This document shows positions 9,313 through 56,265 of a DNA stretch of 64,000 bases, piece by piece. How positions within the stretch are numbered: the stretch's first letter is position 1; each line of letters begins with the position of its first letter. Under the pieces are notes generated by a model, which searched no databases, was not told the origin of the DNA, and saw only the letters and a program-made list of their open reading frames with translations. The stretch comes from Paenibacillus graminis (GTDB lineage Bacteria > Bacillota > Bacilli > Paenibacillales > Paenibacillaceae), in contig NZ_CP009287.1 in NCBI RefSeq assembly GCF_000758705.1, forward strand, positions 1,240,001-1,304,000, in the 5' to 3' direction. Position numbers and translations under genes: made by a program.

Positions 9313-9357
9313 TACTTCCAGCGGGTTTTGTTCTAAAGAGAAAATGAGTGGAGCCAA

Positions 9358-9442
9358 TACTTACAAAACCTGGTGTATGCTTCCGAAGCAAGTTTTGTAC
9401 GAAGAATATTCGGATGAGGCATATGCTTACAAAACTCTTAGG
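9358..9442 (+). promoter_or_regulatory. galU leader with two mutually exclusive hairpins
   Basis: TACAAAAC occurs at 9362-9369 and again at 9428-9435, and its complement GTTTTGTA occurs once between them (9392-9399). The central arm can pair with either copy. Pairing with the second copy forms AGTTTTGTA/TACAAAACT, which ends three bases before the AGGAGG ribosome site (9439-9444). Additional small palindromes are GCTTC-C-GAAGC (9379-9389) and GAATATTC (9404-9411). The layout suggests a leader that can switch between two folds. Confidence 0.45.
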
Positions 9443-9453
9443 AGGTAAGTGCG

Positions 9454-10341: not shown

Positions 10342-10432
10342 AAACCAAGTTTAGACTTTCAAGACGGGTTTTGGACTGTGAAGGGTCAGTAAGCACTCAG
10401 GCTTACACAACATTTAGGAGGAATGAGGAGAG

Positions 10433-11125: not shown

Positions 11126-11144
11126 AAAAATGGAAATTGGGTGA

Positions 11145-12086: not shown

Positions 12087-12094
12087 GGGAGACA

Positions 12095-14211: not shown

Positions 14212-15674
14212 ACGTGAGTCTTCCATCCATGAAGTCAGCAGGAATGCTGCTGCTGATTTGCGGCATCTGTCTGGGCCTTCCGCTGATGATCGGTTTTGCC
14301 AGCGCGAAGCTCAGTTCGTCCAATAGTCTTCAGGGAGTAATCCTGGCGGGCATTCTGTTTCCGGCCTTCCTGCTGGCTCTGCTGAAGCCGAAGGCGCTGA
14401 TCGCCTACACCCTGCTGGTCTGGGCGGTAGCACCGGAGCTGCGGCGTATCGCCGACTGGTCGGAAGGGGTCTACCATTCCGTATCTCTGCTTAGTCTGGC
14501 ACCGCTGCTGACGGGGGCTACCCTGGCCATTCCGGTGTTGAAGGAGATTCACCGCATCCGCAAATCCTCCACCCGGATCATCCTGCTTTTCTCGGTGGCA
14601 CTGGCTTACGGGGCGCTGATAGGGCTCGCGAAGAACGGCATTGGCTCTGTGTACGACCTGGCGAATTACATCGTACCCCTGCTGCTGATTCCGTTCTTTG
14701 CGGTAACGCGTTTTAGACCGAAGGACATTGACCGTCTGCTGTATGCTTTTGCCAATATCGCGGTTCTGGTATCCATTTATGGAATTATCCAGTATTTAAC
14801 TGTACCTCCATGGGATGCCTTCTGGATGAAGAATGCCGACATGATGTCAATTGGTACACCGTATCCTTTGGAAATCCGGGTTTTCTCTACGCTGAATTCT
14901 CCCGGGCCTGCGGCAACCTTCCTGGTATTCGCTCTGGTACCGATGATTCTGGAGAAAAGATGGCAGGGAACGCTGCGCTGGATTGGGGTCATGCTCGTTG
15001 TCATCTGCCTGTTGACCACACTGGTCCGTTCAGCCTGGCTGGTGATGCTGGTGATGCTGCTCGTATACATCGCTTCCTCTCCCTCCAAAGGGAAATGGAA
15101 GGCGCTGCTCCAGCTGGTATTTGTCGCTGCCGCGCTGTTCTGGATTGTCCCTAAGCTGCCGGGTGCCGAAGGGTTGGTCGCCCGTATGGAGACACTGACC
15201 TCCGTCCAGGAAGACCATTCCTACAATGAACGCCTGAGCCTGTGGCAGAACATGCTGCCGATGGTAGCTGCAAATCCGGTCGGGCAAGGGATAGGCAGTG
15301 TCGGCCAGGGGACAAAGATCGGCAACGGCGGCGAGCTTGGCGAATACGGAAATATGGATAACGGTGTTATCGCCCTGCTGCTTACCTTCGGAGTCCTGGG
15401 CGCTTTGTTCTTCTTCGGCGCTCTGGGCGCTGTGATTAAGCAAATTGTAGTCAGAGTCACCAGCAGAGACAGCCTTCAGCCCTATGCCCGGCTGTCGCTG
15501 GCAGCATGGATGGGGGCAGTGATCAGCCTGGTATCGGACAACGGGTTTCCCGGGCTCAAAGGCTACCTGGTCTGGATGCTGATTGGCCTGGGCCTCGGTG
15601 CCAAAGAGATTATTGAGAGCAGAAAGAAGGGAACACCACATGCAGCCATTGAACGCGAAATCACTTCCCACTAA
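14208..15674 (+). CDS. Wzy-like O-antigen polymerase/ligase family membrane protein (2)
   Basis: A 488-residue polytopic membrane protein with many hydrophobic helices. It carries a periplasm-side loop with HSYNERLSLWQNMLPMVAANPVGQGIGSVGQ and GNMDNGVIALLLTFGVLG, which parallels the O-antigen ligase (Wzy_C) signature. It starts with the ATGA overlap. Two Wzy-like proteins in one locus may divide the work between polymerising a main chain and attaching or terminating it. Sequence alone does not say which does what. Confidence 0.83.
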   Translation: MNVSLPSMKSAGMLLLICGICLGLPLMIGFASAKLSSSNSLQGVILAGILFPAFLLALLKPKALIAYTLLVWAVAPELRRIADWSEGVYHSVSLLSLAPLLTGATLAIPVLKEIHRIRKSSTRIILLFSVALAYGALIGLAKNGIGSVYDLANYIVPLLLIPFFAVTRFRPKDIDRLLYAFANIAVLVSIYGIIQYLTVPPWDAFWMKNADMMSIGTPYPLEIRVFSTLNSPGPAATFLVFALVPMILEKRWQGTLRWIGVMLVVICLLTTLVRSAWLVMLVMLLVYIASSPSKGKWKALLQLVFVAAALFWIVPKLPGAEGLVARMETLTSVQEDHSYNERLSLWQNMLPMVAANPVGQGIGSVGQGTKIGNGGELGEYGNMDNGVIALLLTFGVLGALFFFGALGAVIKQIVVRVTSRDSLQPYARLSLAAWMGAVISLVSDNGFPGLKGYLVWMLIGLGLGAKEIIESRKKGTPHAAIEREITSH

Positions 15675-17019
15675 TACAGTCTGGTCTTCGCTTCGGCGGT
15701 TTACCAAGAGTAAAGACAACAGTTCTGCCGCAGTGAAGACGATGTTTGTCAGCGTGCTGATCCTATTGGTTAATATGCTGACGGGTGTGCTGACCGCACG
15801 TTACCTGGGTCCTACAGGACGCGGGGAGCAGACAGCTATGGTGAACTGGTCACAATTTCTGGCGTTCAGCATGAGCTTCGGTATTCCTTCAGCCCTGATC
15901 TACAATGCCAAAAAGAATCCCGAAGAGGCCGGAGTACTCTACCGGGTGGCCCTGCTAATCGCCCTGGTATTCGGAACTCTGGCTATGATTGTCGGGATTG
16001 TGGTCCTTCCCTACTGGCTGAATTCATTCAGTCCGGATGTCGTGCTGTTTGCGCAATGGTCGATGATCCTGTGCCCGCTGATTGTGGTGTCACAGATCAA
16101 CAATGCGGCTTTTCAGTTCAGAGGCGACTACAAGACGTTCAACTGGCTGCGGTATCTGCTTCCGCTGCTGACGCTGGCGGCCATCGGGATTTTGATTCTG
16201 ACCCGCTCGATCAATCCTTTTACAACCGCCTTGGCGTATCTGGTGCCGTCCGTTCCAATCTTCATCTGGATGACGATTACACTGCTCCGCACCTACAGGG
16301 TGAAGATGAATAACGCTTACCTGAATTTCAAAAGACTGTTCACTTACGGACTCGGTTCGTACGGAAATGACTTGCTCGGGCAGTTCTCTTACTATATCGA
16401 CCAGATCATTATTGCCGGCCTGCTGCGGCCAGCCGATCTGGGGCTGTATGCGGTAGCGGTCAGTCTCTCGCGGATGGTCAACTTCTTCTCGAACTCGATC
16501 ACCGTGGTGCTTTTTCCGAAAGCCTCTGAGCTGTCAAAGGACCAGGCGATTGCCCTTACCTTCAAAGCCTTCCGGATCAGCACAACCTGCACCCTGCTGG
16601 GCTCGCTGATCCTGATGCTGGTAGCTCCCTTCGTGATTCCGCTGCTGTACGGCAAGGACTTCAACACCGCATTGACGGTGTTCCGCCTGCTGCTGCTCGA
16701 AGTGACCATCAGCGGAGGCACCTTGATACTGGCCCAGGTGTTCATGGCCCTCGGCAAGCCGAAGTTTGTATCGATTCTGCAAGGCGTCGGACTGATCCTG
16801 GTAATCCCGCTGCTGTTCCTGCTGGTGCCGAAGTTCGGATTGTTCGGAGCAGGGGTGGCAATGCTGTCTTCAGCGGTGCTCCGCTTCCTGTTCATTATTC
16901 TTAACATCAGATACAACCTGAAGGTCAGACTGCCCCGCCTGCTGATTAACGGGGATGACATTCAGTGGATGAAGACAACGATGAATTCTTATATCCGCAA
17001 AAAACCTATGGATACCTAA
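15640..17019 (+). CDS. Wzx-type polysaccharide flippase
   Basis: A 459-residue MOP-superfamily exporter with about 12 to 14 predicted membrane helices. It opens with VSVLILLVNMLTGVLTARYLGPTGRGEQTAMVNW, the classical Wzx/RfbX start, and has TYGLGSYGNDLLGQFSYYIDQIIIAGLL in the middle. It flips undecaprenyl-linked repeat units outward. Start at ATG 15640 after GAAAGAAGGG; the gene overlaps the previous one by 35 bp. The C terminus is followed by a long intergenic region that holds the first structured repeat. Confidence 0.9.
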   Translation: MQPLNAKSLPTNTVWSSLRRFTKSKDNSSAAVKTMFVSVLILLVNMLTGVLTARYLGPTGRGEQTAMVNWSQFLAFSMSFGIPSALIYNAKKNPEEAGVLYRVALLIALVFGTLAMIVGIVVLPYWLNSFSPDVVLFAQWSMILCPLIVVSQINNAAFQFRGDYKTFNWLRYLLPLLTLAAIGILILTRSINPFTTALAYLVPSVPIFIWMTITLLRTYRVKMNNAYLNFKRLFTYGLGSYGNDLLGQFSYYIDQIIIAGLLRPADLGLYAVAVSLSRMVNFFSNSITVVLFPKASELSKDQAIALTFKAFRISTTCTLLGSLILMLVAPFVIPLLYGKDFNTALTVFRLLLLEVTISGGTLILAQVFMALGKPKFVSILQGVGLILVIPLLFLLVPKFGLFGAGVAMLSSAVLRFLFIILNIRYNLKVRLPRLLINGDDIQWMKTTMNSYIRKKPMDT

Positions 17020-17082
17020 GCAAGCGAGCAAAGGCATTATGCGAGCCGCTTTTCTGCTTAACAAACAAATGGACGGTGTCAG

Positions 17083-17212
17083 AGGAACGGAGAGAAAGTG
17101 TGGAGCTGGAGAAGCGTAGCGTTCGCCTTTGTCTTCTGATTTCAACCGTGAATACGGTGTTAAATAAAGAAATCAGAAGACAACAGCGATCGGAAGCCCA
17201 AACATTTCTCGA
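17083..17212 (+). ncRNA. Structured intergenic element, copy 1
   Basis: This shares sequence and structure with 23111-23245. Visible helices: an outer GAGAAA/TTTCTC stem (17092-17097 with 17205-17210); a small hairpin GAA(g)CG-tag-CGTTC (17111-17124); and a 13-bp stem GTCTTCTGATTTC/GAAATCAGAAGAC (17131-17143 with 17169-17181) capped by ACCGT-GAAT-ACGGT (17145-17158). The helices are kept in the second copy by compensatory changes. It has no T run and no ORF. It lies between the flippase and the next glycosyltransferase. It could be a mobile palindromic repeat, an mRNA processing site or a regulatory RNA. Confidence 0.6.
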
Positions 17213-17257
17213 AATGACGGTGGACGCCGGACATACCAAGAAAAGGAGGATACCTAC

Positions 17258-18112
17258 ATGGATTCAGTGAAAAGCGTGCTTGGCGGCCCGGGCAGTTACC
17301 CGATATCGGCTGTCATCATTGCTCAGGATGACGAAGTTCGAATATCCAAAGCAATTCAGTCCTGCCGGTTGTTCGCCGATGAGGTGGTTGTAATCGACGG
17401 GGGGAGCAAAGACGGGACGGTGCAACTCGCCGAAAGTTTGGACTGCCGGGTGTTCGTCAACCCCTGGCCGGGATATGCGAAGCAAAGGGAATTCGGAGTG
17501 GAACGCGCCGTCCATGATTGGGTCTTCCTGATTGATACCGACGAAGTGGTCAGCGAGGAGCTGGCGCAGGACATTCTGGACCGCAAGCCGGGGCTTACAG
17601 ACAGGGCGGTAGCCTTTTCACTGTACCGGATTGGTGATTTCCTGGGCAGATGGCTGGATAAAGGGGAATACCTGGTACGCCTCTATAACCGCAAGGAATA
17701 CGGCATCCGCAACAGTCTGGTGCACGAAATGCCTGAGGTATCGGAGGAAAAGACGGTCAAATTGAACGGGATACTCTGGCATCAGGGATTCCGCAGCATC
17801 AATGACCATGTCGCCCGCTTCAACAAATATACCGATCTCGAAGCGCAGGCTGCCTATGCCAGCGGCAAGCCCTTTAAGGTCAGCCATTTGCTGCTTCGCC
17901 CGCCGGCTCGTTTCTTACAGAAGTATTTCCTGCACGGCCTGTTCAAGAAAGGCATCTCAGGTTTTGCGGTATCCATTTTCTGGGTGATGTATGAATTCAT
18001 GGTCGGCTTCAAGCATTACGAATTGAACAGCTCCGGCAGACTGGCCCGGCACAACGCATTGGGCCAGGCGGAAAAAGAGAAAAAGGGGGAGAGAAGCTAT
18101 GCCGTACAGTGA
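17258..18112 (+). CDS. Glycosyltransferase family 2, WaaE/KdtX-like
   Basis: A 284-residue GT-A transferase with SAVIIAQDDEVRISKAIQSC, EVVVIDGGSKDGT, the FVNPWPGYAKQREFGVERA segment and the metal-binding FLIDTDEVV. This resembles lipopolysaccharide-core beta-1,4-glucosyltransferases of the WaaE type. Around residues 205-245 are basic and aromatic segments (FLQKYFLHGLFKKGISGFAVSIFWVMYEF) likely to bind the membrane. A strong AAGGAGG ribosome site follows the structured element. It overlaps the next gene by 14 bp. Confidence 0.85.
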   Translation: MDSVKSVLGGPGSYPISAVIIAQDDEVRISKAIQSCRLFADEVVVIDGGSKDGTVQLAESLDCRVFVNPWPGYAKQREFGVERAVHDWVFLIDTDEVVSEELAQDILDRKPGLTDRAVAFSLYRIGDFLGRWLDKGEYLVRLYNRKEYGIRNSLVHEMPEVSEEKTVKLNGILWHQGFRSINDHVARFNKYTDLEAQAAYASGKPFKVSHLLLRPPARFLQKYFLHGLFKKGISGFAVSIFWVMYEFMVGFKHYELNSSGRLARHNALGQAEKEKKGERSYAVQ

Positions 18113-19292
18113 CGGTTTGAACATTATGACGACCGGCCTTAGCTGGCCCTCTTTACAGCCAGGCGGACTCAACACTTATTTCAAATCCGTTTGTGAGCAG
18201 CTCTCTTCACGCAATAAAGTGCATGCGCTGATCTGCAGTCAGGAAACGCCATCCACTCCCAAAGAGCTGATTATCCATAACGCCGGCGATCCGAAGCAGA
18301 CGATCTGGAAGCGCAAGGATGCGTTCCAGCGCAAGGCGGCGGACCTGATGGGGAATGGCAGCGGCCGGATCGATATTCTCTATTCCCACTTTGCGCCCTA
18401 CGGGATCGGCCCGGCGATTGAAGCCAAGAAACGCGGAATTCCGGTGGTGATGACCTTCCATGGCCCATGGAATGAAGAAATGAAGATCGAAGGCCAAGGC
18501 ATCAAGCACCGGGTGAAAACAACGATTGCCAAATCCATTGAACATAAAGCTTATAAGCTTGCGGATAAATTCATCGTGCTCAGCGAATATTTCCGCGACA
18601 TGCTGCACAGCCTGCACGGCGTGCCGCTGCACAAGATCATAGTCATTCCGGGGGCGGCGAATGTGGAACGGTTCGTGCCCGCCGCCAACCGGCTGGCGAC
18701 CCGGCGGACGCTGAATCTTCCGGAGGGAGCCACTACTGTGCTTACCGTGAGACGTCTGATGAACCGGATGGGGCTGCTGCAGCTGCTGGAAGCCTGGAAG
18801 CAGGTGTCCGAGCGGTTCCCGAATGCGATTCTGCTGATCGGCGGCAAAGGGCCGCTGCGCGGAGAGCTGGAAGAAAAAATCTCCGATTATGGACTCGGCA
18901 ACAAAGTAAGGCTGCTGGGCTACATTCCCGATCATGAGCTGGCATCCTATTATCAGGCAGCGGACATGTTCGTGGTCCCTTCCCAGGCGCTGGAGGGATT
19001 CGGATTGATTACGGTTGAGGCGCTCTCCTCCGGACTTCCGGTGATGGCCACACCGGTGGGCGGAAACAAGGAGATTCTTCAGGGCTTCCGGCCGGAACTG
19101 CTGTTCAAAGGCTCAACCAGCGACGATATGGCGGAAGGCATGATCCACATGCTGAGCAACCGCAAACTGCTGCCGGGCCGTGATGAATGCAGAAATCATG
19201 TGCTTGAGAAATACACCTGGCAGCATGTAGGCGACCAGGTGGAGTCCGTATTCCTTGAAACTTTGGGAAAGGGGGTGGCAGCAGGATGCTAA
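18099..19292 (+). CDS. Glycosyltransferase family 4 (1)
   Basis: A 397-residue GT-B transferase. The N-terminal acceptor domain has LSWPSLQPGGLNTYFKSVCEQL, with the PGG loop. The C-terminal donor domain has LLIGGKGPLRGELEE, VRLLGYIPDHELASYYQAADMFVVPS and the retaining E-x7-E motif region LEGFGLITVEALSSGLPVMATPVGG. It adds a sugar, commonly mannose, to the growing lipid-linked unit. It overlaps both neighbours by 14 and 7 bp, so the three transferases are read as one block. Confidence 0.88.
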   Translation: MPYSDGLNIMTTGLSWPSLQPGGLNTYFKSVCEQLSSRNKVHALICSQETPSTPKELIIHNAGDPKQTIWKRKDAFQRKAADLMGNGSGRIDILYSHFAPYGIGPAIEAKKRGIPVVMTFHGPWNEEMKIEGQGIKHRVKTTIAKSIEHKAYKLADKFIVLSEYFRDMLHSLHGVPLHKIIVIPGAANVERFVPAANRLATRRTLNLPEGATTVLTVRRLMNRMGLLQLLEAWKQVSERFPNAILLIGGKGPLRGELEEKISDYGLGNKVRLLGYIPDHELASYYQAADMFVVPSQALEGFGLITVEALSSGLPVMATPVGGNKEILQGFRPELLFKGSTSDDMAEGMIHMLSNRKLLPGRDECRNHVLEKYTWQHVGDQVESVFLETLGKGVAAGC

Positions 19293-20428
19293 AAGTTGCT
19301 TACATCGATCACACCGCCAAATGGAGCGGCGGAGAGGTAGCCTTGTTTAACATTCTCACCAACATCAGCAATCAGATCGAGCCGCTCGTGATCCTCGCTG
19401 AGGAGGGCAGACTGGCCGAACGCCTCCGGGAGAAAGGCATTGATGTCCGTGTCATCCCGCTGAATGAGAGCATCCGCAACCGGGGACGGAATGCCGTCAA
19501 CCTGGGCGCTCCGGCTGCTGCGCTGGGACTGCTGGCTTACGGACGCAAGCTGGCTCCTATCCTGAAGCAGGAAAAAGTGGATTGTGTGCACACCAATTCC
19601 CTGAAATCGGCATTCTACGGGGCCGTTGCCGCCAAAAAAGCAGGTGTGCCGCTAATCTGGCATATCCGGGATCACATCGGTGCCCCTTACCTCAAGCCGG
19701 TTGTCGCCAAGGCGATCCGGCTGCTGTCACGCCTGCTGCCGAATGGTGTCATTGCGAATTCGCATTCCACGCTGAATGCGCTGGAGCTGCCCCGCACCAA
19801 GAAAACGCTGGTCGTGTACTCTGCTTTTGCCAAAGCGATTGGTGAAGGAATCGGCAAACGGGAGCAGCAGAAAGAATTCAACGTCCTGCTGGTAGGCCGG
19901 CTGGCACAGTGGAAGGGCCAGCATATCGTACTGGAAGCCGCCAAGGCTTTTAAGAACGACAGCCGCGTGAAGTTCTGGCTGGCCGGGGATGCCCTGTTCG
20001 GAGAAGAGGCGTACAAAAATGAATTAATTCAGAAGATGCAGCAGGATGAGCTGACCAATGTTAGCCTGCTGGGTCATGTGGAAGATATACAAGGCCTTAT
20101 GAGCAAAGCTGATTTGCTGATTCATACCTCGATAACGCCTGAACCGTTCGGCCAGGTGATTGTCGAAGGCATGGCGGCTGGACTGCCGGTAATTGCCTCC
20201 AATGAAGGCGGACCGGTAGAGATTGTGGTTCCCGGTGTAACGGGAATGCTGATCCAGCCTGGAGACCCAGTCGTACTTGCAGACTCTATCACCTGGATGC
20301 TGAACCATCCTGAAGACCGAAGACGGATGGCGGACAGCGGGATGAAGCGGGTGAAAGAGCATTTTGTCATCGAAAATACGGTCAAAGATATCGTTGATTA
20401 CTATAAAGGGTTGCTCGCGGCAACCTGA
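19286..20428 (+). CDS. Glycosyltransferase family 4 (2)
   Basis: A 380-residue GT-B transferase beginning KVAYIDHTAKWSGGEVALFNIL. Donor-site elements are NVLLVGRLAQWKGQHIVLEAA, VSLLGHVEDIQGLMSKADLLIHTS and EPFGQVIVEGMAAGLPVIASNEGGPVEIV. It acts in repeat-unit assembly; donor and acceptor are unknown. About 100 bp of non-coding DNA without clear signals separates it from the next transferase. Confidence 0.88.
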   Translation: MLKVAYIDHTAKWSGGEVALFNILTNISNQIEPLVILAEEGRLAERLREKGIDVRVIPLNESIRNRGRNAVNLGAPAAALGLLAYGRKLAPILKQEKVDCVHTNSLKSAFYGAVAAKKAGVPLIWHIRDHIGAPYLKPVVAKAIRLLSRLLPNGVIANSHSTLNALELPRTKKTLVVYSAFAKAIGEGIGKREQQKEFNVLLVGRLAQWKGQHIVLEAAKAFKNDSRVKFWLAGDALFGEEAYKNELIQKMQQDELTNVSLLGHVEDIQGLMSKADLLIHTSITPEPFGQVIVEGMAAGLPVIASNEGGPVEIVVPGVTGMLIQPGDPVVLADSITWMLNHPEDRRRMADSGMKRVKEHFVIENTVKDIVDYYKGLLAAT

Positions 20429-20528
20429 CCGCAGGTAAGCCAAGAGCTTCAAGCCCAATCAGGAACCAAAACATCCATACATTCACTACTTGCTAATGCT
20501 GCTCCATAAAACTTTGAGGATGATTTAC

Positions 20529-21629
20529 ATGAAAATTGCGATAGCGCACGATTACTTAATCCAAATGGGCGGGGCGGAAAGAGTAGTGGAGGTATTCCAC
20601 CACATGTATCCGGATGCTCCGATCTTCACGACGGTATTTAACGGAAGCCGGCTGACCGACAACCTCAAAGATGCGGATATCCGGGCCTCCTGGCTGCAAA
20701 AAATCCCGGGAGTGAAGACCAACTTTAAAGGGGTGCTGCCGCTTTATCCCATGGCCATCCGTGATTTGGACTTTCGCGGGTATGATATCGTCCTGAGTTC
20801 CAGCAGTGCTTTCATGAAAAGCATACAGGTGCCCGAGTCTACATTTCATCTGTGCTACTGTCATACCCCGATGCGGTTCGCCTGGGACTATGATACCTAC
20901 ATGGAGCGGCAATCGAATTCCGGATTGTTCAAAAGACTGCTTAAGGTCTACATGCAGCGGCTGAAGAATTGGGACCAGCGGACTTCCAAAAATGTAAACC
21001 AGTTTGTCGCCAATTCTTCCGTGGTCAAAACACGGATTCAGAATTACTATCACCGGGATGCGGATGTGATTTTTCCGCCGATCAACACTGCACGCTTCAG
21101 CAGTTCGTCTTCCATAGGCGATTACTATCTGATCGTGTCCCGGCTGGTCTCTTACAAAAGGATTGATCTGGCGGTGGAAGCCTTCAACCGCAACGGGCTG
21201 AAGCTGTTCATCGTCGGCGACGGCCCTGACCGCAAGCGTCTGGAAGGCATGGCCAAAGAGAATGTATCGTTTCTGGGCCGGCTGGAGGATGCCGAGGTGA
21301 CGGGGCTGATGTCGAAGTGCCGGGCGTTTATTTTTCCCGGAGAAGAAGATTTCGGCATTACGCCGCTTGAAGCGAACGCTGCAGGAAGGCCGGTTATTGC
21401 CTATCAGGCCGGAGGGGCGCTGGATACCATCGTTCCTTATGTCAACGGCGTATTCTTCCAGCATCAGGAAGTTGATGATTTACTTAAGGCCATTTACGAA
21501 GTGGAGTCCTATGCGTGGGACATTGGGCAGATCATGGGCCATGCGCGTAAATTTGATGAACAGGCGTTTATGGTTCAGTTCAAGCAATATGTGGAACAGG
21601 CCTACGTCAATTTTCTAAAAGGAGGATGA
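20529..21629 (+). CDS. Glycosyltransferase family 4 (3)
   Basis: A 366-residue GT-B transferase starting MKIAIAHDYLIQMGGAERVVEVF, a form common among mannosyltransferases of polysaccharide loci. It has LCYCHTPMRFAWDYDTYM, SRLVSYKRIDLAVEAFNR, and FPGEEDFGITPLEANAAGRPVIAYQAGGALDTI. I start it at ATG 20529 after TTGAGGATGA and not at an earlier in-frame ATG without a ribosome site. It is followed by the UDP-glucose dehydrogenase after 4 bp. Confidence 0.88.
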   Translation: MKIAIAHDYLIQMGGAERVVEVFHHMYPDAPIFTTVFNGSRLTDNLKDADIRASWLQKIPGVKTNFKGVLPLYPMAIRDLDFRGYDIVLSSSSAFMKSIQVPESTFHLCYCHTPMRFAWDYDTYMERQSNSGLFKRLLKVYMQRLKNWDQRTSKNVNQFVANSSVVKTRIQNYYHRDADVIFPPINTARFSSSSSIGDYYLIVSRLVSYKRIDLAVEAFNRNGLKLFIVGDGPDRKRLEGMAKENVSFLGRLEDAEVTGLMSKCRAFIFPGEEDFGITPLEANAAGRPVIAYQAGGALDTIVPYVNGVFFQHQEVDDLLKAIYEVESYAWDIGQIMGHARKFDEQAFMVQFKQYVEQAYVNFLKGG

Positions 21630-21633
21630 TTGT

Positions 21634-22974
21634 ATGAAACTGACAGTAATCGGTACCGGCTATGTCGGTCTTGTCTCTGGCGTATGTTTTACACTGAATG
21701 GTAATCATGTTATTTGCGTGGATAAGGATGAGGAAAAGATCAAAAAGCTCAGCCAGATGGAATCCCCCATCTATGAGCCAGGTATTGAAGCACTGATTGA
21801 AATGAATTTGCGTGAAGGCAGATTGTCCTTCTCCTCGGATCTTCACGAATCGGTACGCCGGTCTGATATCGTCATTCTCGCTGTAGGGACGCCTTCTCTT
21901 CCCGGCGGTGAAGCAGATCTGAGATATATTGAGGGGGCAGCTACGGAAATCGCCCAGGCTATGGAAGGCTACAAAATCATTATGACCAAGTCTACCGTTC
22001 CTGTGGGCACAAATGAAAAAATCCGTAAAATTATCGCCTCCCACACGAATCATCCCTTCGATATCGTCTCCGCTCCTGAATTCCTGCGTGAGGGGTCAGC
22101 CATCCAGGATACACTCCATCCTGACCGGATTGTTATCGGACTGGATAACCCGGAGCTTGAGCCTGCGATGCGCCAGCTTCACCAGGGCTTCACGGAAAAT
22201 GTGTTCGTAACCGATATCCGCAGTGCTGAAATGATCAAATATGCATCGAATGCTTTTCTGGCAACGAAGATCTCTTTTATTAACGAGATTGCCAATATTT
22301 GCGAAAAAGTGGGAGCTGATGTAACCAAGGTGGCAGAAGGCATGGGAATGGACCGTCGGATCGGCTCAACCTTCCTGCAGGCCGGTATCGGTTATGGCGG
22401 CTCCTGTTTCCCGAAAGACACTAATGCGCTGATTCAAATTGCAGGTAATGTGGACTACGAGTTCAAGCTGCTGAAATCGGTGGTTGAGGTGAACAAAGAC
22501 CAGCGCTTTATGATCATCTCGAAGCTGCATGAGTCGCTTGGCAATCTGCGCGGTGCAGTAATCGGCATCTGGGGCCTGGCCTTTAAGCCAAACACCGACG
22601 ATGTCCGGGAAGCCCCGGCCCGGGAAATTGTTGAGAGCCTGGTGGCCGAAGGCGCTACAGTGAAGCTGTATGATCCGATTGCTGTTGAGAACTTCAGACA
22701 GCAATATGATCATCCGCAGCTGCGCTGGTGCGGCCTGCCGGAAGAAGCGGCGGAAGGCAGCGATGCGGTCTGCCTGCTGACCGACTGGAGCGTGTTCAAG
22801 GACATCGATCTGCACAAGCTTGCGGAGAGCATGCGCCGCCAGGTGCTGATCGACGGACGCAACGTCTACTCCAAAGAGCAGATCGAGGGAACAGGCTTTG
22901 AGTACCATTCTGTCGGACGTCCGCAAATGGGGGGCCTCAGCGGCTACTCCCCCAGCGTAGCCGGGGCGATCTAA
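21634..22974 (+). CDS. ugd: UDP-glucose 6-dehydrogenase
   Basis: A 446-residue enzyme that oxidises UDP-glucose twice with NAD to UDP-glucuronate, supplying the acidic sugar of the polymer. The N-terminal Rossmann motif is TVIGTGYVGLVSGVCFTLNGN. The catalytic cysteine C258 sits in GYGGSCFPKDT. KPNTDDVREAPAREIV and the C-terminal Rossmann domain follow. Length fits the TuaD/Ugd family. AGGAGG ribosome site immediately before the ATG. It is the last gene before the second structured intergenic element. Confidence 0.95.
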   Translation: MKLTVIGTGYVGLVSGVCFTLNGNHVICVDKDEEKIKKLSQMESPIYEPGIEALIEMNLREGRLSFSSDLHESVRRSDIVILAVGTPSLPGGEADLRYIEGAATEIAQAMEGYKIIMTKSTVPVGTNEKIRKIIASHTNHPFDIVSAPEFLREGSAIQDTLHPDRIVIGLDNPELEPAMRQLHQGFTENVFVTDIRSAEMIKYASNAFLATKISFINEIANICEKVGADVTKVAEGMGMDRRIGSTFLQAGIGYGGSCFPKDTNALIQIAGNVDYEFKLLKSVVEVNKDQRFMIISKLHESLGNLRGAVIGIWGLAFKPNTDDVREAPAREIVESLVAEGATVKLYDPIAVENFRQQYDHPQLRWCGLPEEAAEGSDAVCLLTDWSVFKDIDLHKLAESMRRQVLIDGRNVYSKEQIEGTGFEYHSVGRPQMGGLSGYSPSVAGAI

Positions 22975-23110
22975 GTTTTAACTGCCGCCAAACAAGTGGC
23001 AATGCCGGAACTTTGGCAGGGAGCTTCGCCTGCCGGGTGAAGCAGCTTGGGCGAACTAATTCCATTGGCTCGTTTTCCAGTGGAAATGCTGCAGGGAAAG
23101 CTGTTAAGGG

Positions 23111-23245
23111 AGGAACGGAGAGGAATTTTGGAACTGTAGGAGCGAATGCGTCCGCCTTTGTCTGTGGATTTCCACCGCGAACAGCGGTAACAATCAAGAA
23201 ATCTGCAGACAACAGCGGCCGGAAGTCCAAACATTCCTTGCAGAG
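23111..23245 (+). ncRNA. Structured intergenic element, copy 2
   Basis: Homologue of 17083-17212, in the same orientation. Helices: GGA(g)CG-aatg-CGTCC (23139-23153); 13-bp stem GTCTGTGGATTTC/GAAATCTGCAGAC (23160-23172 with 23198-23210, two G.U pairs); cap ACCGC-GAACA-GCGGT (23174-23188); and an outer pairing of GGAATTTTGGA with TCCAAACATTCC (about 23121-23131 with 23226-23237). Differences from copy 1 preserve pairing. The rest of 22975-23390 holds one further hairpin at 23275-23302 and no ORF. Confidence 0.6.
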
Positions 23246-23274
23246 ACTCCCGTAACAGCCGATCTGAAGTATTG

Positions 23275-23302
23275 TCACGCAACATAATGCGTCAGTGACA
23301 TT
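23275..23302. promoter_or_regulatory. Imperfect inverted repeat upstream of manC
   Basis: TGTCACGCA and TGCGTcaGTGACA face each other across a short AT-rich centre about 90 bp before manC. There is no T run, so it may be an operator or an RNA hairpin. The role is unknown. Confidence 0.35.
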
Positions 23303-23390
23303 CCTGCCTTTCATGCGAAAGCCACCCGGCAGCAGCTCACAATAACAATCCGATATTTACGCGACAACACATAAATAGGAGGGTTCACTT

Positions 23391-24764
23391 ATGAAACTGG
23401 TACTTCTATCTGGCGGTTCTGGTAAACGGCTCTGGCCTTTGTCCAACGATTCTCGTTCCAAGCAATTTCTGAAAGTGCTGCAAAGCCCGGCAGGTGAACC
23501 GGAATCTATGGTACAGCGGGTATGGAGACAATTGCAGGAGACAGGGATGGCGGACTCGTCTTATTTGGCTACCGGCCGCAGCCAAGTCGAAATGATTCAG
23601 AGCCAGCTCGGCGCAGAGGTGCCAATCATTGTGGAGCCGGAGCGCCGCGATACCTTCCCGGCCATTGCTCTGACTGCAGCTTACCTGTATTCAATGGCAG
23701 GGGTGTCTCCAAGTGAGACCGTGGCTATTCTCCCCGTCGATCCGTATGTGGAGGCTTCATTTTTTGAAACCGTCGTCCAGCTTGAGGCAACGATGCAGGA
23801 AAGCGGCGCAAATCTGGCGCTGATGGGCGTGGTCCCTGAGCTTGCATCCGAGAAATACGGCTATATTATTCCTACCAGCGATGAGGCGGCGGCAAGCGGC
23901 TATATGCAGGTGAGCCACTTCCAGGAGAAGCCCGACCGCGTACAGGCCGAAGAGCTGATCAGCCGGGGGGCACTGTGGAACTGCGGAGTATTCGCTTTCC
24001 GCCTGGGCTATCTGCTGGATATTTTGCAGCGCAAAGGTCTGCCTTTGAACTATGAGGAACTGCAAAAGCAGTATAAACTGCTGTCGTCCATCAGCTTTGA
24101 CTACGAAGTGGTGGAAAAAGAAGAGAATATCGTCGTTCAGCCTTATGCCGGGTTCTGGAAGGATCTGGGTACCTGGAATACCCTCACCGAGGAAATGAGC
24201 AGCAATCATGTGGGGAAAGGCTTCGTGACCGATGATTCCGAAGGGACTTGCCTAATCAATGAGCTGGATATTCCGATCACAGTAATCGGAGCGAAGGACC
24301 TGATTATCGCAGCCAGCCCGGACGGCATTCTGGTGACCCACAAAACGGAAAGCCCGCGCATCAAGGAAGTGCTGAAGTCTTTTGAACAACGACCGATGTA
24401 CGAGGAGCGCCGCTGGGGCCACTATAAGGTCATTGATTATGTGAAGTACGATGAGGGCAATGAAGTGCTGACCAAGCGGATTTTCATCGCAGAAGGTAAA
24501 AATATCAGCTATCAGCTGCATCACAAGCGCAGTGAAATCTGGACGATCGTCAGCGGCGAGGCAAGCATTGTGCTGAATGAGAAGATGCATAATGTGAAAG
24601 CAGGGGATGTAGTCCGCATACCGGAAGGGACAAAACATGCCATTCTGGCGCTGACAGATGTGGAGTTCATTGAAGTGCAGACCGGCTCGGAACTGGTAGA
24701 AGAAGACAATATCCGCATTACGCTGGAGTGGGAAGATATCGCTCTGCAGCAGTTTATTTCGTAA
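23391..24764 (+). CDS. manC: Mannose-1-phosphate guanylyltransferase with C-terminal cupin
   Basis: A 457-residue enzyme making GDP-mannose. The N-terminal nucleotidyltransferase has VLLSGGSGKRLWPLSNDSRSKQFLK and FQEKP. The C-terminal region (about residues 345-445) is a type-II phosphomannose isomerase cupin with SYQLHHKRSEIWTIVSGEASI and RIPEGTKHAI, so both mannose-6-phosphate isomerase and GDP-mannose pyrophosphorylase activities are possible. It is the last biosynthetic gene and sits next to mannanase genes, which supports a mannose-containing polymer. Confidence 0.93.
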   Translation: MKLVLLSGGSGKRLWPLSNDSRSKQFLKVLQSPAGEPESMVQRVWRQLQETGMADSSYLATGRSQVEMIQSQLGAEVPIIVEPERRDTFPAIALTAAYLYSMAGVSPSETVAILPVDPYVEASFFETVVQLEATMQESGANLALMGVVPELASEKYGYIIPTSDEAAASGYMQVSHFQEKPDRVQAEELISRGALWNCGVFAFRLGYLLDILQRKGLPLNYEELQKQYKLLSSISFDYEVVEKEENIVVQPYAGFWKDLGTWNTLTEEMSSNHVGKGFVTDDSEGTCLINELDIPITVIGAKDLIIAASPDGILVTHKTESPRIKEVLKSFEQRPMYEERRWGHYKVIDYVKYDEGNEVLTKRIFIAEGKNISYQLHHKRSEIWTIVSGEASIVLNEKMHNVKAGDVVRIPEGTKHAILALTDVEFIEVQTGSELVEEDNIRITLEWEDIALQQFIS

Positions 24765-24921: not shown

Positions 24922-24949
24922 TAAACTAAAAATTTAATAGAGACGATAC
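24922..24949 (+). promoter_or_regulatory. Sigma-D-like promoter of the first GH26 gene
   Basis: TAAA (24922-24925), a 16-bp spacer and GACGATAC (24942-24949) match the Bacillus sigma-D consensus TAAA-N14-16-GCCGATAT in the full -35 and six of eight -10 positions. The same 16-bp spacer is seen in front of the chemotaxis receptor at 56.4 kb. The predicted start point falls just upstream of the riboswitch. The remaining sequence from 24765 shows no other clear signal. Confidence 0.45.
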
Positions 24950-24970
24950 TTACGGTAAGAGGGATAAATC

Positions 24971-25063
24971 CTTCCAAAACGACAAAGGCAAACCTAATCG
25001 AAAGATAGGGACGCAAAGCTATAGGGCCTTCGAAAGAGTGGCAGCCTGGCTACCGAAAGGAAG
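24971..25063 (+). ncRNA. Cyclic-di-GMP-I (GEMM-I) riboswitch
   Basis: Conserved core elements occur in order: AAAGGCAAACC (24984-24994); a hairpin CCTAATC-GAAA-GATAGG with the GNRA tetraloop at 25000-25003; ACGCAAAGC (25011-25019); a second stem; and GGCAGCCTGGCTACC (25040-25054), close to the GEMM-I consensus. CTTCC (24971-24975) can pair with GGAAG (25059-25063) to close the aptamer. That GGAAG is the ribosome site of the GH26 gene, whose TTG start is 7 nt further on. No terminator hairpin lies between aptamer and gene, so translational control, probably OFF with bound ligand, is the simplest reading. Confidence 0.85.
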
Positions 25064-25070
25064 ATGAATT

Positions 25071-27533
25071 TTGACAACTTACCGTAAGTCGCGTCTGGTG
25101 TCCATCATGTTAACTATTGCCCTGTTTCTGACTGCAGTGCCGCTTGGCCTGGGGGGCGCGCCATCGAAGGCAGCTGCTGCCTCGGATTCTCCAGCTCCGG
25201 TTAATCCCAATGCTTCAACTGCTGCCGTCAAGCTGCTTGACGAATTAAACGCTATTTCAGGAAAAGGCATTATCACTGGCCAGCATGACTATCTGGAGAG
25301 CCCAGATGAATTCAGCAACAAACTGAAGGGGACGAGCGGAAAGTACGCGGCCCTTCACGGCTACGAGCTTGGCTTAATCAGCGGCCAGTCGGAAAGCACT
25401 GGAGCAGCGCAGCGCAGAAATGTAGTGTACAGCGCAATCAACTGGTACAAAAATGGCGGTATCGTCGCTATGACCTTCCATGAGCAGCTGCCCGGCACTT
25501 CGTATCAATGGGCGAATGTGCAGAAGACGCTTAGCCAAGCGGACTTCAATAAGTATGTAACACCGGGAACGGCTCAATACAACAGCCTGATCGCCGATCT
25601 GGACAAAGTGGCCGTTTCGCTTAAGACCTTGCGGGACGCTGGCGTCCCGGTCCTATGGAGACCTTACCATGAAATGAACGGCAACTGGTTCTGGTGGGGC
25701 AAGAAAAATAATTTTGCGGAACTTTGGAATATTATGTATGACCGTTTCGTAAACGTTCATCAATTAAACAACCTGCTGTGGGTGTGGAACCCCAATGCTC
25801 CAAATGCCTCATCCGATCCTTATGAACTAACCTATCCGGGGGCGGATAAGGTAGACGTTCTCGCAGCAGATATATATAACAATGATTATATGAACAAATA
25901 TCATGACAGCCTGCTGAGCCTCGCGGACGGCAAACCCATTGCCATTGGTGAAAATGGCGAAATGCCAAGCACAGCCAAGCTGCAGCTCTCCCAGAGACAA
26001 TGGGTCTATATGATGAACTGGGGAAAAATGCTCTATGAGAACAACAGCACCACCACCATCAAAAACTTTATGAATGACGACTACACGGTAACACTGGATC
26101 AATACAAAGCTGGGCTGGATGTACCTGCGGCTCCACCTACTCCGGCGGCTACGCCAACCCCAGTGCCGACGGCTACACCGACACCGGTGCCAACGGCCAC
26201 GCCAACACAGGTACCAACGGCCACGCCAACACCGGTACCAACGGCCACGCCGACACCGGTACCAACGGTTAAGCCTACGGCCACACCGGTACTATCTCCA
26301 GATAATGGTACGGTGGTTTCTCCCGCTCTAAATGGTCTTCAGGGAGAATATTTCAAGAATATGACGCTTTCGGGTACACCTGTACTCGTGCGTAACGACG
26401 CAGTAGTCAATTTTAACTGGCGGCAGGCTGCACCGGATAGCTCGCTTGGGGTGGATTCGTTCTCGATCCGCTGGACCGGGCTGATCAAACCGTCTTACAG
26501 CGAGACTTACACGATTTCCACGACTTCAGACGATGGTATCCGTGTCTGGATTGACGGTACAGCCGTGATCAGCAGCTGGACCAAGCAGAGCGGAACCGAA
26601 CGTACCGGGAATATCACCTTGAAGGCAGGCCAGCTCTACGATATCAAAGTCGAGTATTACGAAAATGCAGGCGATGCCAACATTCGTCTAATGTGGCAAA
26701 GCCCTAGCCAGACCAAAGCTACCGTTCCAACCAGCGCTTTGTACGTCAATACCTCAGCAGCCAGCTCAAGCAAAACATTGCTGGCCGTAGCGCCGACCCT
26801 AGCGCCAACGCCGGCAGCGACACCGGCAGCAACGCCGGCAGCAACTCCGGTGCCAACGCCGGCGGCGACCCTGGCGCCGACACCGGCAGCAACGCCAGCA
26901 GCGACCCCGGCGCCAACGCCGGCAGTGACCCTGGCGCCGACACCGGCAGTGACCCTGGCGCCGACACCGGCAGTGACCCTGGCGCCGACACCGGCAGCAA
27001 CTCCGGCGCCAACGCCGGCGGCAACTCCGGCGCCAACGCCGGAACCTGCATCGGCACCGGCTCCGGAACCGCCGTCGGCTCCAGCAGCAGCGCCTGCCGA
27101 TAACGGACTGCAGGCGGAATATTTCAGCAATATGCAGCTGTCCGGTACTCCGGCAGTTGTACGCACCGATGCTGTGCTTGATTTCAACTGGCGGTTGGGT
27201 TCGCCGGATGCTGCAATCGGTACCGATTTCTTCTCGGTACGGTGGAGCGGCAAGATCAAACCGCTATATAGTGAAACCTATCAGATCTATACAACATCAG
27301 ATGATGGTGTCCGCGTTTGGGTCAATGATACTCTTGTGATTGACAGCTGGATGAAGCAGAGCGGAACCGAACGCACAGGAAGCATAAGCCTGCAAGCCGG
27401 GCAATTGTATGATATCAAAGTGGAGTATTACGAGAACCAAGGGGATGCAAAAGCGCGGCTGATGTGGGAAAGTCCAAGCCAAGTCAAAGAGACGGTTCCT
27501 GCCAGCGCCCTTTTCCTTCCTTCCGCTTCCTAA
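25071..27533 (+). CDS. Secreted GH26 beta-mannanase with two PA14 domains
   Basis: An 820-residue secreted enzyme. A signal peptide (about residues 1-35, ending SKAAAAS) precedes a GH26 catalytic domain (about 45-345). The likely acid/base is E201 in VLWRPYHEMNGNWFWWG and the likely nucleophile is E294 in IAIGENGE. A Thr-Pro-rich linker leads to PA14 domain 1 (about 421-560; GLQGEYFKNM...SDDGIRVWIDG). A second linker of about 100 residues of A-T-P repeats leads to PA14 domain 2 (about 677-815). PA14 domains often bind glycans. The TTG start lies behind the riboswitch-embedded ribosome site. Position next to manC suggests it cleaves the locus' own polymer or a similar mannan. The linkers are encoded by 24-bp-like tandem repeats and could vary in length. 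Confidence 0.9.
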   Translation: MTTYRKSRLVSIMLTIALFLTAVPLGLGGAPSKAAAASDSPAPVNPNASTAAVKLLDELNAISGKGIITGQHDYLESPDEFSNKLKGTSGKYAALHGYELGLISGQSESTGAAQRRNVVYSAINWYKNGGIVAMTFHEQLPGTSYQWANVQKTLSQADFNKYVTPGTAQYNSLIADLDKVAVSLKTLRDAGVPVLWRPYHEMNGNWFWWGKKNNFAELWNIMYDRFVNVHQLNNLLWVWNPNAPNASSDPYELTYPGADKVDVLAADIYNNDYMNKYHDSLLSLADGKPIAIGENGEMPSTAKLQLSQRQWVYMMNWGKMLYENNSTTTIKNFMNDDYTVTLDQYKAGLDVPAAPPTPAATPTPVPTATPTPVPTATPTQVPTATPTPVPTATPTPVPTVKPTATPVLSPDNGTVVSPALNGLQGEYFKNMTLSGTPVLVRNDAVVNFNWRQAAPDSSLGVDSFSIRWTGLIKPSYSETYTISTTSDDGIRVWIDGTAVISSWTKQSGTERTGNITLKAGQLYDIKVEYYENAGDANIRLMWQSPSQTKATVPTSALYVNTSAASSSKTLLAVAPTLAPTPAATPAATPAATPVPTPAATLAPTPAATPAATPAPTPAVTLAPTPAVTLAPTPAVTLAPTPAATPAPTPAATPAPTPEPASAPAPEPPSAPAAAPADNGLQAEYFSNMQLSGTPAVVRTDAVLDFNWRLGSPDAAIGTDFFSVRWSGKIKPLYSETYQIYTTSDDGVRVWVNDTLVIDSWMKQSGTERTGSISLQAGQLYDIKVEYYENQGDAKARLMWESPSQVKETVPASALFLPSAS
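26140..26290 (+). repeat. Coding tandem repeat, linker 1 of the GH26 protein
   Basis: Units of about 24 bp encode TPVPTATP repeats, with near-identical GTACCAACGGCCACGCC blocks. This is a likely site of length variation by slippage. Confidence 0.7.
26800..27080 (+). repeat. Coding tandem repeat, linker 2 of the GH26 protein
   Basis: About 280 bp of short repeats encode APTPAATP and TPAVTLAP units. Three consecutive CCGGCAGTGACCCTGGCG blocks are identical. It joins the two PA14 domains. Confidence 0.75.
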
Positions 27534-27725: not shown

Positions 27726-29243
27726 TTGAACACTTACCGTAAGTACCGGCTTTTTATTACGATCCTGCCTATTATTTTTATCCTTTCTTTGCTGCCTTGG
27801 AGTGAGGCGCGCAGTCTCTCTATTGAACGGAATGTGGTGATTCCCCCGGAGGCAGTCACACCGGTGAATCCATCGGCTTCGCAGGAAGCCGCCGATCTGC
27901 TGGATTATCTGGTTGATCTCGGAGGAAAGGGCATAATCTCCGGACAGCATGACTATCTGGAGAGTCCGGACGAATTCAACAACAAGCTGAAGAATGCCAC
28001 AGGGGAGTACGCAGTGCTGCATGGCTATGAGCTTGGAGCGGTTAACAACCAGCCGAAGGGGACTATTGCCCGGCAGCGCCAGGCTGTAGTGGACAGCGCG
28101 ATTCAATGGCATGAGGATGGGGGCATCGTGGCGATGACGTTCCATCAGAACCTCCCCGGAACCTCTCCGGAGTGGGCCAACGTGCATATGAGCCTGAGCC
28201 AGGAGAAATTCGATGCCTATGTTACACCGGGTACGGCGGAATACAAAAGCCTGCTAGCTTCACTTGACGATATTGCCGTCTATTTGGGTGAACTGCGGGA
28301 TGCAGGAGTTCCTGTGCTGTGGCGTCCGTATCACGAAATGAACGGGAACTGGTTCTGGTGGGGGCAGAAGGATAACTTTTCCAAACTCTGGGATATTACG
28401 TACGACCGGCTGGTGAACCAGCATAAATTGAATAATTTGCTGTGGGTATGGAATCCGAATGCTCCGAATGAGTGGGCAGATCCTTACAGTGCCTATTATC
28501 CTGGTGCAGATAAGGTGGATGTACTGGCGGCTGATATCTACAATAATGATTACAAACAGTCTTATTATGAAGGCCTGCTCGAATTGGCTAATGGAAAGCC
28601 TATAGGCATTGGAGAGAGCGGGGAGCTGCCGGATCCTGCTATATTGTCTCAAACCCAAAGTAAATGGGTATATACGATGACATGGGGGAAAATGCTGACC
28701 GAAAATAACAACCTCCAGAAAATCCAGAGTTTTATGACCAATCAGCATACGGTATCCAGACAGGATTACGTTCAGTCGCTTAATACCAAAACGAATAATT
28801 CAGCAGGCATCATTCCGAAGAATGGCTTGAAAGGCCAGTATTTCGACAATGCCGAACTCTCAGGAACGCCTGTGCTCACCCGCAATGACAAGAAGATTGA
28901 CTTTAACTGGCATGGAGATTCTCCGGCGGCAGGTGTAAGCAAGGATTCCTTCTCAGTGCGCTGGACCGGGAAAATGAAGGCGGTCTACAGCGAGGAATAT
29001 ACGTTCACCGCTTCCTCGGATGATGGCGTCCGTGTATGGATCGGTGACAAGCTGATTATCGACAGCTGGAAGAAGCAAAGCGGTGTCAGCCGCGTGGGGA
29101 GTATTAAGCTCACAGCAGGAACCTCGTATAACCTGAAAGTAGAATATTACGAGAACCGCGGAGACGCAAACATCCGCTTGATGTGGAAGAGTCCGAGCCA
29201 GAAGCCTGGGCTCATCCCCCAGAACGCCCTTACCCTTCCATAA
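27726..29243 (+). CDS. Secreted GH26 beta-mannanase with one PA14 domain
   Basis: A 505-residue paralogue of the preceding enzyme. The TTG start (27726) is preceded by GAGAGGAG; the first residues (NTYRKYRLF) match the upstream paralogue (TTYRKSRLV), which supports it. A signal peptide is followed by the GH26 domain (about 45-345) with E204 in VLWRPYHEMNGNWFWWG and E297 in GIGESGE, and a single PA14 domain (about 366-505) reached through a very short linker. The pair looks like a tandem duplication in which this copy lacks the second PA14 and the long linkers, and it has no riboswitch of its own. Confidence 0.9.
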   Translation: MNTYRKYRLFITILPIIFILSLLPWSEARSLSIERNVVIPPEAVTPVNPSASQEAADLLDYLVDLGGKGIISGQHDYLESPDEFNNKLKNATGEYAVLHGYELGAVNNQPKGTIARQRQAVVDSAIQWHEDGGIVAMTFHQNLPGTSPEWANVHMSLSQEKFDAYVTPGTAEYKSLLASLDDIAVYLGELRDAGVPVLWRPYHEMNGNWFWWGQKDNFSKLWDITYDRLVNQHKLNNLLWVWNPNAPNEWADPYSAYYPGADKVDVLAADIYNNDYKQSYYEGLLELANGKPIGIGESGELPDPAILSQTQSKWVYTMTWGKMLTENNNLQKIQSFMTNQHTVSRQDYVQSLNTKTNNSAGIIPKNGLKGQYFDNAELSGTPVLTRNDKKIDFNWHGDSPAAGVSKDSFSVRWTGKMKAVYSEEYTFTASSDDGVRVWIGDKLIIDSWKKQSGVSRVGSIKLTAGTSYNLKVEYYENRGDANIRLMWKSPSQKPGLIPQNALTLP

Positions 29244-56207: not shown

Positions 56208-56265
56208 CAGTATTTCTGACAGTTAAAGGTAGCAGGCAATGCCTACCAACTTTGCATACATTATA

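Follow-up and report, generated by a model that had tools for sequence, protein, structure and literature searches.

A close known parallel to the RNA element reported here is the translational lock of phage T4. According to two accounts (PMC3014915, PMC2988022), the initiation regions of gene e and of I-TevI are covered by folds in early read-through transcripts, whereas late transcripts begin too far downstream to contain the 5' strand of the fold; for gene e, the lock guards against making lysozyme too early. We analyzed a 64,000-nucleotide stretch of the Paenibacillus graminis chromosome (NZ_CP009287.1, positions 1,240,001 to 1,304,000; "the window"), and we focus on the leader of a GH26 glycoside hydrolase gene at the end of an exopolysaccharide (EPS) locus. 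This leader contains an aptamer of the cyclic di-GMP (c-di-GMP) type, and the aptamer is enclosed by a conserved helix, which we call the lock helix, between a promoter-like site and codons 3 to 9 of the gene. We give a probability of roughly 55% to the reading that this is a T4-lysozyme-type RNA lock on a bacterial chromosome: an internal promoter of the motility type would supply, with its -10 element, the 5' strand, the matrix hydrolase would be silenced on the matrix-building transcript, and the nested c-di-GMP aptamer would act as a second gate. In this reading, the arrangement is conserved, with promoter letters and codons coevolving across many Paenibacillus species.

As in the T4 locks of gene e, soc, and I-TevI, the promoter lies in the 5' arm and short transcripts would escape; the evidence here is folding and conservation. 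Such a lock is marked by a helix that is conserved, lies over the initiation region, and shares its 5' arm with an internal promoter; this leader has a helix of that kind, with the -10-like element in its 5' arm. The setting differs from T4, as we are dealing with a bacterial chromosome and a sigma-D-like promoter (instead of a late promoter), the helix lies over codons 3 to 9, and a ligand-sensing aptamer sits between the arms. The purpose would differ as well: gene e avoids early lysozyme, whereas here no matrix hydrolase would be made from the matrix operon. Another long mRNA that is translationally inactive is known from Salmonella IsrK, but there a small RNA acting in trans opens it (PMC4825925).

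Another close system is the c-di-GMP-I riboswitch (RF01051 / RF03167). The window's RNA resembles it in its full-length match, in its canonical contact letters, and in its place in the 5' leader of a gene for a predicted secreted protein. In contrast to the known riboswitch, the outer P1 strand pairs with the Shine-Dalgarno (SD) sequence itself and has a competing 5' hairpin, and a second helix, of promoter and coding sequence, encloses the aptamer.

Two other systems are alike in purpose or in gene content. In Clostridioides difficile, PPEP-1 (ZmpI) releases surface adhesins whose genes have c-di-GMP riboswitches (PMC6366702). Both circuits would have c-di-GMP riboswitches and a secreted enzyme that releases the cell's own surface-attachment factor, but C. 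difficile uses a protease and a protein adhesin, while here we have a glycoside hydrolase and probably EPS. In Paenibacillus polymyxa WLY78, the pep-2 operon includes ugdH1, manC, pepM (GH26), and pepN; manC and pepM are co-transcribed by reverse transcription PCR, and the authors propose that PepM and PepN could hydrolyze polysaccharide (PMC7911366). The likeness to the window lies in the ugdH-manC-GH26 gene set, and the main text of that paper does not contain the words c-di-GMP, riboswitch, or promoter (PMC7911366). Among the papers listed in our literature searches, which most subscription journals lay outside of, we saw no account of this leader.

A helix between promoter region and codons

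The features of the leader are as follows.

24922..24925, + strand: -35-like TAAA, from the sequence; a flagellin promoter of the same genome is alike
24942..24949, + strand: -10-like GACGATAC, which doubles as the outer stretch of the lock helix's 5' arm
24942..24959, + strand: 5' arm of the lock helix, GACGATACTTACGGTAAG, covering the -10 and the start region; pairs with 25078-25095
24954..24957, + strand: probable transcription start, placed by its distance from the -10
24959..24974, + strand: 5' hairpin P0 (24959-24964 with 24969-24974), from folding; its 3' side overlaps the anti-Shine-Dalgarno
24971..24975, + strand: anti-Shine-Dalgarno (anti-SD) CUUCC, the outer P1 strand, from folding and alignment
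24978..25058, + strand: c-di-GMP-I (GEMM-I) aptamer, an Rfam covariance-model match
25057..25063, + strand: SD sequence AAGGAAG; within it, GGAAG (25059-25063) pairs with the anti-SD
25071..25073, + strand: TTG start codon of the GH26 gene, from open reading frame calls and SD spacing
25078..25095, + strand: 3' arm of the lock helix, codons 3 to 9 of the GH26 gene

Many of these elements had already been named in a sequence-only reading of the window. That reading placed a TAAA-N16-GACGATAC promoter, which we found exactly, with the layout of one of the genome's own flagellin promoters; it also placed a GEMM-I aptamer, and it suggested a covariance-model search as a check. The search matches the aptamer at 24978-25058 above threshold with both RF01051 (63.8 bits) and RF03167 (60.2 bits). 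The proposed TTG start of a GH26-PA14 enzyme is borne out, at 25071 behind AAGGAAG, and so is the position of the gene after the GDP-mannose gene of a polysaccharide locus: manC (23391-24764) lies directly upstream on the same strand here, and it does so in 65 of 66 related loci.

To compare leaders, we used several sets of related loci (handles such as L194 are ours). When named genomes were scanned at the protein level, the best 80 of 156 matching stretches came from 75 distinct loci. Among the matches listed, 23 of 50 Paenibacillus loci have the aptamer (21 by pattern; by eye, L030 and L037 as well). At the DNA level, we searched 100 Paenibacillus genomes, and 85 had matches, many of which cover just the aptamer and are other copies of it. 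We selected 65 leader-reaching stretches from the listed matches. In L209, the contig ends inside the aptamer, and we left it out; the 64 stretches with a usable aptamer and start, together with L026 and L037, make up 66 records. Locus L207 (which has an insert), L208 (which is without the promoter arm), and L026 (which has the same leader as L219) were excluded from the leader alignment, the folding, and the promoter counts. With these and identical rows removed, the alignment ("A2") has 59 distinct leaders. L037 was included in the later leader tests and L030 was not. As these sets show, manC and the leader recur together in the genus Paenibacillus.

In the window, the lock helix has 12 unbroken base pairs (24948-24959 with 25078-25089), then two mismatches, then 4 more pairs. 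(An inverted-repeat search reports the repeat as 24941-24974 / 25063-25096.) The length of the helix is 12-20 base pairs, and the aptamer is enclosed between its arms. Across the 59 distinct leaders and 18 pairs, 90.7% of the 1,062 cells are paired, and sliding the partners by 1-3 columns reduces this to 30-37%. Double changes are seen at 9 of the 18 pairs, as compared to 3.9 +/- 0.9 in shuffles; none of 500 shuffles reached this number. Because these shuffles ignore relatedness, we also rebuilt the changes by parsimony on a manC tree. This gave 7 compensatory changes on the same branch, where 1.27 were expected. The total of same-branch changes was 10 for the lock pairing and 1-6 for 17 rotated pairings. 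For instance, in L194, a change of A to T in the leader goes with a codon change of T to A, which replaces Tyr with Asn; in L195 and L197, T to A goes with A to T, which replaces Lys with Met; and in the clade of L211-L220, T to G goes with A to C.

The pairing is also stronger than the protein sequence demands. In all 52 distinct leaders tested, the lock helix was better than synonymous recodings of the N-terminus (share as good at most 0.05; mean z of -3.4), and in 49 of 52 it was better than the average of other species' gene starts. The mean energy of the duplex is -23.7 kcal/mol. Flagellin promoters, which share the -10, do not pair with their own genes (mean z of -0.6, n=23), as compared to -6.0 for the leaders (n=53). 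For the window itself, the computed cost of opening 25059-25089 is 7.3 kcal/mol in the short RNA versus 16.3 and 18.3 kcal/mol in two longer RNAs. When the footprint runs from the SD to about 12 nucleotides beyond the start codon, opening costs more in the long RNA for 41 of 59 leaders (mean of 8.3 versus 5.6), a mixed result. What is new in this leader is the conserved helix around the riboswitch, with its proposed role as a lock.

Aptamer and predicted Shine-Dalgarno switch

Across all 64 kb of the window, the aptamer is the only Rfam match that reaches the gathering threshold. With 60.2 bits (gathering threshold of 59; E = 1e-11), RF03167 (c-di-GMP-I-GGC) matches 24978-25058 on the + strand. 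RF01051 (c-di-GMP-I) scores the same site far above its own threshold of 35 bits in a search of the complete 7.17 Mb genome. That genome has nine aptamers; all nine pass the cut-off for RF01051 and six of nine pass that for RF03167. The label "GGC" arises because only that match within the clan was kept in the Rfam output. We take the ligand-contact letters to be G20, A47, and C92 (in the Vc2 numbering), and these letters, placed by eye, are all canonical. Presumably, the name of the GGC variant refers to a G at the position of A47. This RNA has an A where the RF03167 consensus has G (GGGACGC-A-AAGC in the alignment), and since the discriminating position is A, we rejected the assignment to the GGC variant. 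Judging by its letters, the RNA is an ordinary c-di-GMP-I aptamer, and its predicted ligand is c-di-GMP.

The expression platform appears to act on the SD. In the short RNA, P0 and the anti-SD:SD helix (24971-24975 with 25059-25063) share bases and are mutually exclusive. P0 is more stable than in shuffles (mean z of -3.8 for 42 distinct leader segments); the weakest values are from L037 (-1.4), L181 (-1.7), and L203 (-1.9). The arms of P0 covary: they are GAGGGA/UCCUUC in the window, UAAGAGAGA/UUUCUCUUA in L200, AGAGGA/UCCUCU in L199, and GAAGGC/GCCUUC in L216. (P0 was counted by folding and not on alignment A2, where the rows of L210-L220 are offset by one at P0.) In the anti-SD:SD helix, 94.9% of cells are paired, versus 48-62% with the partners slid. 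Even the SD covaries, with a UA to CG change in six rows, so that six cells have a double change versus 1.1 in shuffles.

When the aptamer is forced to form, the mean probability across the 59 leaders that the SD pairs with the leader rises from 0.01 to 0.63, given a start equivalent to 24954, or from 0.00 to 0.47, given a start equivalent to 24956. With either start, the pairing is higher in 56 of 59 leaders. (For L215, L217, and L220, the forced state gave no score, and their values were entered as 0.) Because forcing the aptamer favors anti-SD:SD over P0, the predicted direction is OFF: in these models, c-di-GMP should turn translation off. A transcription terminator as the expression platform was rejected, as none was found in 24600-25120 and the aptamer ends at the SD.

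In L207, an insert of roughly 180 nucleotides parts the promoter arm and P0 from the aptamer, which makes it a natural disruption of the switch.

At about 820 kb in the same genome (L001/L003), two c-di-GMP-I aptamers in tandem precede a gene with a start like a signal peptide, and paired neighboring matches of this kind recur in other genomes of the genus. At about 605 kb (L008), an aptamer is followed by a terminator-like hairpin (by eye) and then by a gene with a signal-peptide-like start. In L034 / L208 (2450-2600 of L208), the sequence 5' of the aptamer resembles, by eye, that of the tandem aptamers (L003); this leader lacks both the promoter arm and manC, which could reflect recombination between aptamers or a misassembled metagenome-assembled genome.

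A putative internal promoter and a proposed two-layer control

One of the genome's own flagellin promoters has the layout TAAA-N16-GTCGATAT, which is the same as that of the leader's site. In the distinct related leader promoters, TAAA is present in 26 of 44, with a spacing of 15 (17 promoters) or 16 (9 promoters), and GNCGATA is present in 43 of 44 distinct stretches, with the rows being anchored on this motif. Across the related genomes and this one, 26 of 37 flagellin start sites have a site of the TAAA-N15/16-GNCGATA type; this count allows a looser -35 and includes overlapping loci repeatedly, so that 23 are distinct. The other 11 flagellin start sites had no match: nine of these are in loci with multiple flagellins, and L237 and L241 are single. 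We found no sigma-70-type promoter in 24600-25120. The use of sigma-D is likely at the window's site and less certain in the clade of L210-L220.

At the second letter of the -10, A is paired with a codon T in 21 rows, T is paired with A in 21 rows, and 16 rows are unpaired. This pattern suggests that RNA pairing to codons, too, may hold the letters of the -10 in place.

An AT-rich block 5' of the promoter (24876-24904, AACAGGTATTAAGAACCATTTATTAAG) looks alike, by eye, in many relatives. It is a possible regulator site.

We propose that the leader exerts two-layer translational control over the GH26 enzyme encoded last in the EPS operon, whose target would be the matrix. In the first layer, a transcript that reads through from manC would hold both arms of the helix, and the initiation region would be shut regardless of the ligand. 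The scan of 24600-25120 found no terminator-like site between manC and the leader. The internal sigma-D-like start would fall inside the 5' arm, about seven bases after the -10, so that a short transcript would keep only the last few bases of the arm. In the second layer, on the short transcript, P0 would take up the anti-SD in the absence of c-di-GMP, leaving the SD free; with c-di-GMP, the aptamer would close P1 and its outer strand would pair with the SD, which would turn translation off. The net effect would be that the enzyme is made only when the motility-type promoter is active and c-di-GMP is low, and never from the polysaccharide-building transcript. We consider this combination, a lock on operon read-through plus a c-di-GMP OFF switch on the short transcript, to be slightly more probable than its negation.

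The sequence-only reading had proposed that low c-di-GMP and active sigma-D switch on an enzyme that cuts the cell's own matrix. Part of this is supported: the aptamer, the flagellin-type promoter, and the GH26-PA14 gene by manC are there, and the leader's anatomy and the folding models back the OFF direction, with low c-di-GMP as the ON state. Ligand binding, dependence on sigma-D, and action on the cell's own polysaccharide are predictions. The sequence-only reading overlooked the conserved pairing between the -10 and codons 3 to 9. The regulatory reading changes because the EPS-operon transcript should be locked at any level of c-di-GMP.

If the two-layer model is correct, then a single operon can carry both the builders of a matrix and its breaker without sabotaging itself, as the builders' transcript could not be translated into the breaker. 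The leader would combine two known devices, the c-di-GMP riboswitch and the promoter-inside-hairpin lock of phage T4, and it would imply that pairing with coding sequence at the RNA level can put a constraint on a promoter element. It would also provide a defined genetic means of controlling dispersal in Paenibacillus that produce EPS.

Several results weigh against the two-layer model. As to the promoter, 18 of the 44 distinct related ones have TTCA, TTTA, TACA, or TTAA in place of the -35 TAAA, and the TAAA-N16-GACGATAC pattern is rarer in the genome than its reversed control (47 matches versus 89). We therefore discarded the genome-wide count as evidence, and because of these two observations, sigma-D is not proven. 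As to the lock, the window's pairing by itself is only moderately unusual, as 10 of 1,000 intergenic shuffles pair as well; the case comes from comparing related species, and the tree-aware count is small and from one parsimony reconstruction. In 18 of 59 leaders, the long RNA was not harder to open. Many of these exceptions arise from an upstream choice of start, which ends the footprint before the 3' arm, and some are possibly real. Also, the cores of the arms are strongly conserved and nearly palindromic, so the core could be a protein-binding site. As to the switch, the count of anti-SD:SD pairs with double changes, and their pair types, were matched by 361 of 500 shuffles. Forcing the aptamer raised the cost of opening the SD in 48 of 59 leaders with the 24954 start, but in just 38 of 59 with the 24956 start, and in the free state the SD is only partly open (mean unpaired of 0.38).

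Competing explanations and the gene's surroundings

The remaining features of the locus are as follows.

7908..24764, + strand: EPS biosynthesis locus, which ends with ugdH and manC
23391..24764, + strand: manC (mannose-1-phosphate guanylyltransferase type), the upstream co-directional gene of the EPS locus
25071..27533, + strand: GH26-PA14-PA14 gene, an open reading frame of 820 amino acids with a TTG start
27729..29243, + strand: second GH26-PA14 gene, in tandem with the first; TTG start by analogy

The EPS locus encodes Wzz-like and ParA/BcsQ-like (ATPase) proteins, a sugar transferase, glycosyltransferases, two Wzy-like proteins, a flippase-like protein, UgdH, and ManC. The product of the GH26 gene has a GH26 domain (Pfam E = 7.4e-53) and two PA14 stretches. 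Its N-terminus resembles a signal peptide (by eye), so we predict that it is secreted. Among GH26 chains with structures, the closest are 6q75 (GH26A) and 3zm8 (an endo-beta-1,4-mannanase). Both Glu-bearing motifs of 6q75 have aligned counterparts here, WRPYHEMNG and IGENGE, and the two Glu are presumably catalytic. By position and family, the enzyme is the counterpart of PepM from P. polymyxa. We infer that it cuts the cell's own polysaccharide.

Alternatively, the enzyme could serve in feeding on plant mannan instead of in matrix release, with c-di-GMP restricting it to motile, foraging cells. This possibility, which is compatible with the lock, fits with the top-scoring structural GH26 chains being mostly named beta-mannanases. 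The window also encodes a GH26 enzyme with S-layer-homology and mannan-binding-type domains (51960-56207), which suggests that mannan feeding is within the organism's range too. On the other hand, the leader's gene sits at the end of an EPS locus beside manC, in 65 of 66 loci, and the gene in P. polymyxa pep-2 has the same placement, where the authors also suggest self-hydrolysis (PMC7911366). We regard a role in mannan feeding as less likely than not.

As for the leader, one alternative is that it is just a c-di-GMP OFF riboswitch behind a sigma-D promoter. An inverted repeat without a role of its own would then be shared by descent, as the promoter and the signal peptide are each conserved. 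The aptamer and the anti-SD:SD pairing would suffice for a translational OFF switch, both the promoter and the N-terminus (mostly YRK) are conserved, and the window's own pairing stands out at just 1 in 100 against shuffles. Against this alternative stand the excess of same-branch compensations (7 versus 1.27), some of which replace a residue (Tyr by Asn in L194, Lys by Met in L195), and a pairing that exceeds synonymous recoding in 52 of 52 leaders. We think it unlikely that the repeat lacks a function.

It is more improbable still that transcription of the whole leader, 5' arm included, normally begins at a promoter further upstream, that the sigma-D-like site is no promoter, and that the long helix serves as the OFF state of the riboswitch itself. 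In favor, one continuous structure can contain both the lock and P1 in its ligand-bound form, 18 of 44 promoters lack the -35, and the block at 24876-24904 is conserved by eye. However, at a mean of -23.7 kcal/mol, the helix seems far too stable for the ligand to control, and the gene would be permanently off. Also, no sigma-70-type promoter was found in 24600-25120, and the -10 and the flagellin-like spacing are retained in most of the distinct stretches.

Last, it is very improbable that the pairing is a by-product of two operator sites (palindrome CTTACSGTAAG), one over the start site and one within the gene, to which a dimeric regulator would bind. In favor, both arms come close to being palindromes and have strongly conserved cores, and a simple count of internal-palindrome versus cross pairing gave no separation (in variant rows, 0.79 for cross and 0.81 and 0.67 for internal). 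Against it, the helix reaches GNCGATA / TATCGNC, beyond any palindrome, and all six of the same-branch compensations in the core change the partner in the other arm and break the internal palindrome (by eye).

We also considered a divergent promoter in the 3' arm and rejected it: TATCGNC is present in 15 of 59 gene starts, and none of these has TTTA 14-17 nucleotides further.

The distance from manC to the GH26 gene is 206-307 nucleotides in 64 loci and 412 nucleotides in L207. The locus is close to that of Paenibacillus jilunlii, whose best segment (L022) has a protein identity of 91%, and the DNA of the leader is 99% identical to that of genome G029. In L203, the GH26 reading frame ends after 94 codons, so the enzyme may be broken there. 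The second GH26-PA14 gene opens (27729-27760) with the same 11-mer, CTTACCGTAAG, as the first; we saw no matching leader arm. The GH26 gene with S-layer-homology domains adjoins a gene for a methyl-accepting chemotaxis protein (51960-58267).

Among 33 genomes chosen for their weak or missing leader matches, we found no close relative of PepM (E at most 1e-20 and above 38% identity), and 9 of the 33 have distant GH26 genes.

In outgroup Paenibacillus (L041, L043, L045, L046, L048, and L053), the order ugdH-manC-GH26 is the same and the stretch examined is without an aptamer. A search of the outgroup leader from L045 had six Rfam matches, all far below the gathering scores, and none was credible. 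L044 shows no stem of the outgroup type, and L042 was not among the folded leaders. The outgroup leaders fold into another long stem (GTATGGTAGATT ... AATCTACCATAC in L045), which ends at the SD and lies about 120 nucleotides before the start of the GH26 gene. According to these folding models, the outgroup stem might be an independent lock.

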